Of a DNA stretch of 64,000 nt, positions 13,271 through 42,158 are shown one piece after another. The DNA is taken from NCBI RefSeq assembly GCF_003991225.1, contig NZ_JTFC01000015.1:1-64000 (forward strand). The letters are read 5' to 3'. The notes under the pieces were generated by a model that was not told the origin of the DNA, searched no databases, and worked only from the letters and a program-made list of their open reading frames with translations. Made by a program: the position numbers and the translations under genes. Source of the DNA: Candidatus Kurthia intestinigallinarum. GTDB lineage: Bacteria; Bacillota; Bacilli; Bacillales_A; Planococcaceae. Numbering within the stretch: the first letter of the stretch is position 1; every line of letters starts with the position of its first letter.

Positions 13271-13568
13271 ACATAGATTCATGAGATAATTAATATCTTG
13301 CTGATTTTGTATGGCATTTTATGAGTATTTTTGAAGATACTTATTCATTCTGGCGCAACCACGGAGTTGCAGAGACGCGAAAGCAGGTAGGGTTTGCGTT
13401 GCTTAAGTTAGAAAATAATCCAATGAAAATTACCGCGGTCTATAATTTTTTTAAATAAATTCTCCCGACGATGGGATCGATACAACTTAGAAAATTAGCA
13501 ATAAAAAGAGGGCTCCTAGATGATTCTAGGGGCCCTCGTCCAATTTCTAAATCTTTTTTATAAAAATT
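13271..13568 (+). other. Intergenic region with an unexplained structured segment
   Basis: At 13353-13408 GCAAC can pair with GTTGC at 13366-13370 or with a second GTTGC near 13399, giving two exclusive folds, with GACGCGAAAGC between. A GC-rich hairpin follows at 13508-13537 (GAGGGC...GCCCTC), with a T-run only on the minus strand. No known riboswitch was recognised and no gene is visible. Confidence 0.35.
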
Positions 13569-39601: not shown

Positions 39602-40114
39602 TTAATTGTTTAAAAAATCGCGCTGGAACATGCACATTCGAATCGCATCATGGTAGCTCCCATTAATGAAAAATTCTTCTTTCAGTTCGCCTTCAATTTG
39701 AAAGCCTGTCTTTTGATAAATATGAATTGCCTTGTGATTCTTTTTATCGACGAGTAAATAAATCTTGTGCAAGTTTAAAATCGTAAAGGCATATTCAGTT
39801 GCAAGTTTAGTAGCTATACTTGCGTAACCTTTTCCCTGTGATTGTGGGTCGATAATAATTTGAAACTCTGCATTTCGGTGAATTAAATCGATTTCTACTA
39901 GCTCAACGAGACCAACAATTTGTTTATCATCCATTAAGATAAAACGACGTTCACTTTGGTTATGAATATGTTTCTCGAATAAATCTTGTAACTCGGCAAA
40001 TGATTCATAAGGTTCTTCAAATCAATAAGAAATAATTTTGTTGTCGTTATTTAAGAGATGAATATAGCGTAGATCTTCACGTTCAAGAGCGCGTAATTGT
40101 ATATTTGCTTTCAT
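39602..40114 (-). pseudogene. SpeG-like spermidine N-acetyltransferase with one nonsense codon
   Basis: Reading from ATG 40114 (AAGGAGTTATACTT upstream) gives MKANIQLRALEREDLRYIHL, typical of SpeG, interrupted by a TGA at 40022-40024 where SpeG has Trp ([11 protein letters not shown]). After the stop the frame continues intact through the GNAT site ([17 protein letters not shown]) to the natural end, 171 codons in all, SpeG's normal length. It is a recent single-mutation pseudogene, or a sequencing error. Translation from an internal ATG (39934) would lack the N-terminal domain. Confidence 0.82.
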
Positions 40115-40306: not shown

Positions 40307-40798
40307 TTAATTCCGTATTCTTTTTTGCTTGCGTAGTGCTAATGCTTGATGAAAACAGTTTTGAGCCTTTTGATGAAACCCAACTTCCATATAACATTTC
40401 CCCATATGCTGCAAAATAAAATCTCGATGTGATTCGATAAGATGTGTATCACATAAGAATAGTGCCTTTTTAAATAATTTTAACGCAAGCGCATGTAAGT
40501 CACTATATTTGTATGTTTCACCAAGACGAACAAGTGTAATGAGTTCTTTTTTAGGGTCATTGTTTTCTCGCGCATAATCCAGACAGATGTGAAAATAATT
40601 TTCAGCCACAACAATATCAGTTGGAACATGCACACTGTGAAGGCGATAATAATAACCAAGAATACTAGCAAGCCGGTATATTTCTAAATCCTTCGCATGG
40701 GAGAATTGTCGCTCATATTCAGTGATTTTTTGCTGTAGATGTTGCTGGTCCAATGTTGCTTCTCGCAAAAAATGCTGCTCGTCAAAATAAACTTTCAT
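40307..40798 (-). CDS. TPR-like helical protein
   Basis: A protein of 163 residues. Residues about 60-155 form helix pairs with TPR spacing, for example LITLVRLGETYKYSDLHALALKLFKKAL and ILQHMGKCYMEVGFHQKAQNCFHQALAL. The start is the ATG after AAAGGAGGAAAGGAT. It lies downstream of the pre-peptide gene on the same strand, beyond a terminator hairpin. It resembles the peptide-sensing TPR part of RRNPP regulators without the HTH, so it could belong to the neighbouring signalling locus. That link is inference. Confidence 0.7.
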   Translation of the reverse strand: MKVYFDEQHFLREATLDQQHLQQKITEYERQFSHAKDLEIYRLASILGYYYRLHSVHVPTDIVVAENYFHICLDYARENNDPKKELITLVRLGETYKYSDLHALALKLFKKALFLCDTHLIESHRDFILQHMGKCYMEVGFHQKAQNCFHQALALRKQKRIRN

Positions 40799-40821
40799 AT
40801 CCTTTCCTCCTTTTTGATACA

Positions 40822-40861
40822 GAAAAACCCACAATTCTCATGGCGGTGAAGAATTGTGGGC
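40822..40861 (-). terminator. Terminator between the pre-peptide and TPR genes
   Basis: A perfect 11-bp stem (CCCACAATTCT / AGAATTGTGGG) followed by TTTTT on the minus strand. Read-through would join the peptide and TPR genes into one transcript. Confidence 0.85.
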
Positions 40862-40973
40862 CCAATTCGGGTTATTACATAATAGGGATTTTTAAATTAA
40901 GTACTAGTAAGAGGTGATCTCCATTTGGGATGAATAATGGAATCATTCTTTAGATAAAAGCATATTTAAGAAT

Positions 40974-41087
40974 TTAAGGCTTAACTAGCCACCAGTGATC
41001 TGCTGCTGCGACAATAACTGTTGCTGCTAGCAAAGAATAATACCCTAGTGCTGTTTTAAATTTTGTTGAAAATTTATGTTTTTCCAT
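40974..41087 (-). CDS. Putative signalling pre-peptide, 37 residues, with C-terminal WW motif
   Basis: A short frame with a near-perfect ribosome binding site (TAAGGAGGTGATGATA before ATG). The product starts with a basic segment MEKHKFSTKFK, has a hydrophobic core (about residues 13-29) and ends AAADHWWLVKP, the layout of exported pheromone precursors. It is divergent from an Rgg-type regulator 77 bases away, as in streptococcal Rgg-SHP pairs. The Asp-starting tail recalls SHP peptides and the double Trp recalls the XIP peptides of ComRS. A terminator follows. Pheromone function is inference; a small membrane protein is the alternative. Confidence 0.68.
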   Translation of the reverse strand: MEKHKFSTKFKTALGYYSLLAATVIVAAADHWWLVKP

Positions 41088-41137
41088 TATCATCACCTCC
41101 TTAAAAATAATATAATAGAAAAGTGAACCTTGTGCAC

Positions 41138-41149
41138 AGTTTGTAAACT
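41138..41149. promoter_or_regulatory. Dyad between peptide and regulator genes
   Basis: AGTTTGTAAACT (arms AGTTT/AAACT) and an adjacent GTGCAC palindrome (41132-41137) lie in the 77-base gap. TATTAT (minus strand, about 41113-41118) is a possible -10 for the peptide gene, with no good -35, as expected for an activator-dependent promoter. Confidence 0.45.
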
Positions 41150-41164
41150 ATATGACACATTTGG

Positions 41165-42037
41165 ATGGTGGAGAAATTGAAAATTGGAACATTAATAAAA
41201 CGAATCCGTAAGAGCAAAAGTCTAACACAACAACAAGTTGCCAATGCCATGATGATTACAAGACCCTATTTAGCAAAAATCGAAAACAATCATCATCAAA
41301 TTTCTTCAGAGAAATTAACATATATTTTAGACTATTGTAATGTGAATTATGATGAATTTCTTTTTATGAAAAATGATTTTAAAGTAAGTGAGAAGACAGG
41401 TACTTATTCAGAAATAATAGATATGTATGTGAAAAATGATTTTGAAAGTGTAAATAAATTAAAAGAGCATTCCCAATATAAATTTGAAGAAACACAGGAT
41501 ATTTATTATCGACATTTAGTCATTTTATGTGAGTGCATTGCAATGAAATTTGATATAGAAAAAATACCAGAGTTTTATCGTCAGGAGCTAACGGAGTATC
41601 TAATGAGTGTTAATGAATGGACTTATTATGAATTGGTTTTGTTCAATAATTTTTTATACTTATTTCCACCTAATACAACAATGCTTCTCGCAGATAATCT
41701 AATAGATAGAGCTTTAAAATATAAAGAATTAAAAAGCGATTATGAAATTATTGGAATGTTATTGTTCAATCTTATCAATATAAGTTTTAAAATAAAAAAC
41801 TATAAAAAGATAGACATATTTTTAAATGTTGCTAAAAAATTATATAGTGAGCAAAATCGTTTCTTCGAGCAAACGATGATTAAATACTATACAGGCTTGC
41901 GTATGATTTTAGATAAAAAAGAAGAGGGAATCGAACTTAGTCGCCAGGCGCTTGAAGTTTTTAAATTACTTGATCATCATGATCTATATACTTTTTATGA
42001 AGGGCGTTTGCATCAATTATTAAAAGAAATGGAATAA
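41165..42037 (+). CDS. Rgg/GadR/MutR-type transcriptional regulator (RRNPP-like)
   Basis: A protein of 290 residues: an XRE helix-turn-helix (about 8-65, LIKRIRKSKSLTQQQVANAM...RPYLAKIENN) and an all-helical C-terminal region with the Rgg-type NEWTYYELVLFNNFLYLF stretch. Size and architecture match Rgg and PlcR regulators that bind short peptides. The ATG at 41165 has no clear ribosome binding site; a TTG at 41177 lies after GGTGGAG and may be the true start. It probably controls the divergent pre-peptide gene. Confidence 0.8.
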   Translation: MVEKLKIGTLIKRIRKSKSLTQQQVANAMMITRPYLAKIENNHHQISSEKLTYILDYCNVNYDEFLFMKNDFKVSEKTGTYSEIIDMYVKNDFESVNKLKEHSQYKFEETQDIYYRHLVILCECIAMKFDIEKIPEFYRQELTEYLMSVNEWTYYELVLFNNFLYLFPPNTTMLLADNLIDRALKYKELKSDYEIIGMLLFNLINISFKIKNYKKIDIFLNVAKKLYSEQNRFFEQTMIKYYTGLRMILDKKEEGIELSRQALEVFKLLDHHDLYTFYEGRLHQLLKEME

Positions 42038-42042
42038 CTAAA

Positions 42043-42078
42043 AAGCTCCTACGACAGGTATGTGTTATAGGAGTTTTT
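42043..42078 (+). terminator. Terminator of the Rgg-type gene
   Basis: AGCTCCTA...TAGGAGTTTTTT forms a stem with a T-run. Confidence 0.7.
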
Positions 42079-42158
42079 TGCTGGATAGAATGCATTAGAT
42101 AATACCATTTTACAATGTTTCATGGTCTCAAATTAAAAACCGTCTGCTTAGAAATTGT

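Follow-up and report, generated by a model that had tools for sequence, protein, structure and literature searches.

The window, by which we mean the entire 64,000-nucleotide stretch of DNA analysed, contains a divergent gene pair made up of a 37-codon propeptide gene (MEKHKFSTKFKTALGYYSLLAATVIVAAADHWWLVKP; 40974..41087, minus strand), recognized as an open reading frame with a conserved divergent counterpart in related genomes, and the gene of an Rgg-family regulator (41165..42037, plus strand). The start of the propeptide gene and the rgg ATG at 41165 are separated by exactly 77 bp, which hold, moving toward rgg, a ribosome-binding site with the Shine-Dalgarno sequence (SD) AAGGAGGTG (41094..41102, minus strand; an SD is also present in relatives), a propeptide promoter with the hexamers TGCACA and TATATT 16 nt apart (41109..41136, minus strand) and a putative Rgg operator box, TGTAAACTATATGACACA (41142..41159, plus strand). 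Each gene is followed by a predicted terminator hairpin with a T-run, that of the propeptide transcript lying about 115 nt past the stop codon (40823..40860, minus strand; −22.5 kcal/mol, z = −2.6) and the other directly behind rgg (42040..42079, plus strand; z = −4.3); neither hairpin was listed by a simple consensus terminator scan. The 37-aa product combines a basic N-terminus and a hydrophobic core with the tail AAADHWWLVKP. The initial annotation had described this gene, its divergent position 77 bases from the regulator, a near-perfect ribosome-binding site, a terminator of its own and a peptide of this composition, all of which we reproduced. Among 4000 dinucleotide shuffles, an SD-led divergent ORF of 30-40 aa arose in 1.5%, and one that also had a basic start and a hydrophobic core in none (0/4000).

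Comparison of the regulator to curated profiles yielded matches to Rgg_C (PF21259; E = 4.1 × 10−35, 121.5 bits vs. a cut-off of 27), TIGR01716 (E = 3.6 × 10−31, 108.5 bits vs. 36.9) and HTH_3 (E = 4.3 × 10−11, 43.1 bits vs. 23), so that the protein carries both an N-terminal XRE HTH and an Rgg_C domain above the curated cut-offs, the combination expected of the Rgg family, and the earlier assignment of an Rgg-type HTH regulator is upheld. Sequence-profile searches against PDB chains matched it to Rgg3, Lmo0325, Rgg2 and RopB, and an AlphaFold model (pLDDT 72.5, computed from an alignment of 4 sequences) matched the folds of NrpR of S. salivarius, Lmo0325, Rgg2, Rgg144, Rgg3 and PrgX. Judged from these matches, the product of 41165-42037 is a full-length, true Rgg.

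We searched for orthologues of the regulator in 101 relatives and then in 261 genomes of the same family. The family search gave a sharp score gap, with 13 Rgg orthologues above 400 bits and all other proteins below 150 bits. These 13 are confined to Rummeliibacillus and Lysinibacillus and are 41-44% identical to the window Rgg. An order-level search (also 261 genomes) returned the same set and nothing more, and a class-level sample of 399 genomes contained no further orthologue. When genome contigs were queried with an alignment, Rgg was detected in L. telephonicus, L. fusiformis and Rummeliibacillus (sp. POC4); a single-protein query detected none. Of 8 genomes from the window's own genus, 1 (the window genome) has the intact system and another (G003, contig C20) has a C-terminal rgg remnant that is 73% identical, has IS66-type genes as neighbours within a region of partial collinearity and lacks a peptide gene; this remnant is a lost copy of the Rgg-propeptide system. 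Carriage of the locus on a mobile element is disfavoured, since tblastn in plasmids and phages found only Rggs of 22-30% identity and a scan of viral contigs found no orthologue, which makes the locus look chromosomal. The gene that comes next after rgg, in the same orientation, codes for a GGDEF-EAL protein (e.g., L003:2520-3855; Pfam assignment on the Rummeliibacillus copy) in Rummeliibacillus and in the majority of Lysinibacillus loci, which suggests a link to c-di-GMP in these relatives; there is no such gene after the window rgg.

All 13 orthologous rgg loci (13/13) contain an SD-led ORF, divergent from rgg and 32-36 aa long, with a basic start, a hydrophobic core and a mostly aromatic tail. 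Absence of such a frame had been set beforehand as grounds for rejecting the proposal. As a control, 13 more distant Rggs were inspected, of which only 2 had an SHP-like divergent ORF. In two loci of the same family (L042 and L045), the regions upstream of rgg encode SHP-like divergent ORFs of another type, MKKKMLLTGLILYIVGGEVLSAVVESLLYITP and MKKMNLKHLLNVGLGILIIIGAGKASFLAETLIK, resembling the streptococcal SHPs of the IIIVGG type. The C-terminal tail of the propeptide is conserved inside each genus, as expected of a mature pheromone: in Lysinibacillus the consensus is xW[FL][IV]G[YF] (PLIWLVGF, PMYWFIGYE, PFIWLAGY, PLIWLAGY, PLVWFIGY, PDYLLIGF, PDHWFIGF, AMMWFIGYD, PMMWFIGYY, PMAWLIGYE and PMAWLIGYY), in Rummeliibacillus it is HFFA[LE]F (HFFALF and HFFAEF), and the window tail is HWWLVKP. 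The double Trp is thus peculiar to the window species, with a single W in most Lysinibacillus and FF in Rummeliibacillus, so that of the conserved divergent frame with a D-x-W-W-type end that had been anticipated, the frame holds up and the WW does not.

To count substitutions in the propeptide frame we used six independent sister pairs, which together show 55.8 synonymous and 82.2 nonsynonymous changes. Neutral simulations, which were simple in assuming uniform sites and a fixed transition bias, produced 31-40 synonymous changes, significantly fewer than observed (P ≤ 0.0005), and a premature stop was gained in 97.6-99.9% of them. The substitution pattern indicates that the propeptide frame is under purifying selection, as the initial annotation had required. 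As an alternative, the ORF could encode a membrane peptide (type I toxin-like or a stress peptide) that is merely controlled by the adjoining Rgg and carries no signal: at 32-37 aa with a hydrophobic core the products could insert in membranes, and the gene is monocistronic, with its own terminator. We consider this unlikely, given that the ORF tracks Rgg in every one of the orthologue loci, that its tail is conserved within each genus and that the C-terminal domain of the regulator is of the peptide-binding type.

An 18-bp box, TGTAwACwAwwTkAyACA, is common to all 14 intergenic regions (those of the window and the 13 orthologues), with 12 of 18 columns invariant and diverged flanks. On its propeptide side, a −10 hexamer with a match of at least 5/6 lies 26-27 nt away in 14/14 loci (27 nt in the window), and the window −35, a poor TGCACA, is 5 bp from the box; on the other side, no more than 5 bp separate the window box from the start codon of rgg. 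The conserved box, its constant distance to the −10 and the poor −35 of the window together give the layout of an activator-dependent promoter, in which the box, a few bases ahead of the propeptide −35, is a putative activator site. The exact pattern occurs once in the window's genome, at the rgg-propeptide intergenic site. Two further sites with 1 mismatch, one in a terminator hairpin (L099) and one between genes with no evident target (L087), are at chance level, and this genome yielded no other convincing box.

Compared to the Rgg2/Rgg3-SHP systems of streptococci (groups I and II), the locus has the same Rgg fold and domain order, a divergent short propeptide with a basic N-terminus and a hydrophobic core, and, if the putative box is functional, a regulatory site between the two genes; it differs in its longer propeptide (32-37 aa), its aromatic tail and its hosts, Lysinibacillus, Rummeliibacillus and kin. 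In group I and II SHPs, the mature peptide begins with a conserved Asp or Glu (PMC13361665), whereas here an Asp precedes the tail only in the window, L032 and L034, most other propeptides having P-[MLF]-x-W and those of Rummeliibacillus LQHFFA. The original proposal of a divergent-peptide Rgg-SHP system stands as regards the pairing of Rgg and a divergent propeptide of its own, an arrangement found in the window and in 13/13 orthologues, and fails as regards the Asp/Glu of SHP groups I and II. The double Trp had also been taken as a mark of ComS/XIP peptides, and a ComRS-type competence system would share with this locus an Rgg-superfamily regulator and, in some XIPs, the double Trp near the C-terminus; however, ComS and its regulator do not have a divergent arrangement (PMC7018657), ComR is absent among the sequence matches of our regulator to PDB chains and ranks far under Rgg2/Rgg3 by fold, and the WW is not conserved outside the window species, so that we regard this reading as scarcely credible. 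Somewhat less improbable, although still very unlikely, is a leaderless RopB-LCP system of the kind reported in Lysinibacillus sphaericus and Bacillus cereus (PMC10518010): the RopB profile matches at 2 × 10−18, but the similarity to Rgg2/Rgg3 is stronger, and the propeptides are 32-37 aa long and carry a basic leader and a hydrophobic core, unlike leaderless peptides of 8-10 aa. RtgR/RtgS of Streptococcus pneumoniae shares the divergent arrangement, the lack of the SHP Asp/Glu and a Trp-rich motif near the C-terminus (PMC7018657), and differs in that RtgS has Trp-X-Trp, which we found in the propeptide tail of neither the window nor its relatives, that RtgR is phylogenetically nearer to ComR and that its target is a peptide-export locus. 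By sequence, then, the locus is SHP-like and closest in style to RtgR/RtgS, and is neither a strict SHP member nor ComRS.

Taken together, these comparisons make it quite likely that the window locus is a self-contained, autoinducing Rgg-propeptide signalling system. Propeptides of Rgg/SHP groups I and II leave the cell through PptAB, are processed by Eep and re-enter through Opp. In the window system, the propeptide would be exported (the candidate equivalent of PptAB being EcsAB) and cleaved by a membrane protease (the candidate equivalent of Eep being RasP), the pheromone would correspond to the C-terminal 7-10 residues, and after re-import by an oligopeptide permease it would bind the C-terminal domain of Rgg. 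Peptide-bound Rgg at the box would then activate the propeptide gene, creating positive feedback, and the proximity of the box to the rgg start codon may let Rgg control its own gene. EcsB and a member of the M50 protease family are present in the window's genome; EcsAB and RasP are, however, widespread housekeeping proteins, so that their presence lends weak support to signalling. The window tail HWWLVKP is unlike the Lysinibacillus consensus, which makes the mature pheromone given here a guess. This deviating tail speaks against the signalling reading, as do the lack of the SHP Asp/Glu in most relatives and the patchy occurrence of the system within the window's genus.

The exact box, for which we estimate by hand from base composition about 0.02 chance matches per genome, occurs once more, at one conserved place, in 8 of the 11 Lysinibacillus genomes with this Rgg (L103-L110), and as a tandem pair in two of the 8 (L106 and L107). 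This second box lies directly downstream of a conserved promoter, TTGTAA-17-TAAAAT, which reads toward a spo0E-family gene some 560 bp away that encodes a SpoOE-like protein of 53-54 aa (Pfam, 4.8 × 10−16); conserved sequence is also found immediately upstream of that gene. In 13 Lysinibacillus genomes without an Rgg orthologue there was no box near any spo0E-like gene, these possibly not being the same spo0E gene in each. The box at the spo0E side is missing in 3 Lysinibacillus genomes with Rgg (G283, G284 and G296) and at the spo0E locus of the window's genome, which marks it as a lineage feature; sequence ahead of the Spo0E gene in the window genome resembles the box in part, but was rejected, as the resemblance is not conserved in G003 or Rummeliibacillus. 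The position of the box just downstream of a promoter directed toward spo0E implies that in Lysinibacillus Rgg probably represses or gates that transcript, and would thereby probably couple cell density to sporulation through it. A functional analogy is possible to the Bacillus systems Rap-Phr and NprR-NprX, in which peptides adjust sporulation, with the difference that Rap has canonical TPRs and acts on Spo0F by protein contact, whereas the present regulator is a DNA-binding Rgg that may influence transcription toward spo0E.

A 2022 survey of RRNPPA regulators confines Rgg, ComR and PrgX to Lactobacillales, with Bacillales using Rap, NprR, PlcR and AimR (PMC9765709), the survey of leaderless peptides cited above covers L. 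sphaericus and B. cereus, and Lysinibacillus goes unmentioned in the main text of the RRNPP_detector paper (PMC10075063). We found no description of this Rgg-propeptide system in the open-access literature that we searched. The window locus and its relatives represent a coherent clade of Rgg-propeptide loci outside Lactobacillales. The system is very probably a functional Rgg-pheromone pair in a group reported to be without Rgg, and the conserved putative operator provides a testable regulon. The most interesting lead is the link to spo0E: through the operator that recurs at this gene, cell density would have a direct means of controlling sporulation in Lysinibacillus, whose members include mosquito-control strains. 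If true, this would constitute a new quorum-sensing input to Spo0A and sporulation in which a regulator of the streptococcal type takes the place of Rap or NprR. The most inclusive reading, namely an undescribed Rgg-pheromone clade spanning Lysinibacillus, Rummeliibacillus and the window's genus, with a pheromone code for each genus and direct control of transcription toward the Spo0E-family phosphatase gene in Lysinibacillus, is advanced tentatively, its chances falling slightly short of even.

Downstream of the propeptide gene, beyond its terminator, lies a gene for a TPR-only protein (40307..40798, minus strand), which the initial annotation had suggested as a third component of the system. 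We reject this candidate, because a terminator lies between the two genes, a 42% identical paralogue is encoded elsewhere in the same genome (G000:C172), with scattered homologues in the family, and no TPR gene was found beside rgg in the loci of relatives. A frame for a GNAT acetyltransferase (SpeG-like by eye; window 39602-40114, minus strand) is split by an in-frame stop that parts the first 30 codons from the remainder and is probably a pseudogene. An Rfam scan gave no match at the propeptide-rgg locus; elsewhere in the window, positions 13325-13412 (minus strand) match the small RNA BsrC with 55.6 bits at a gathering score of 38.
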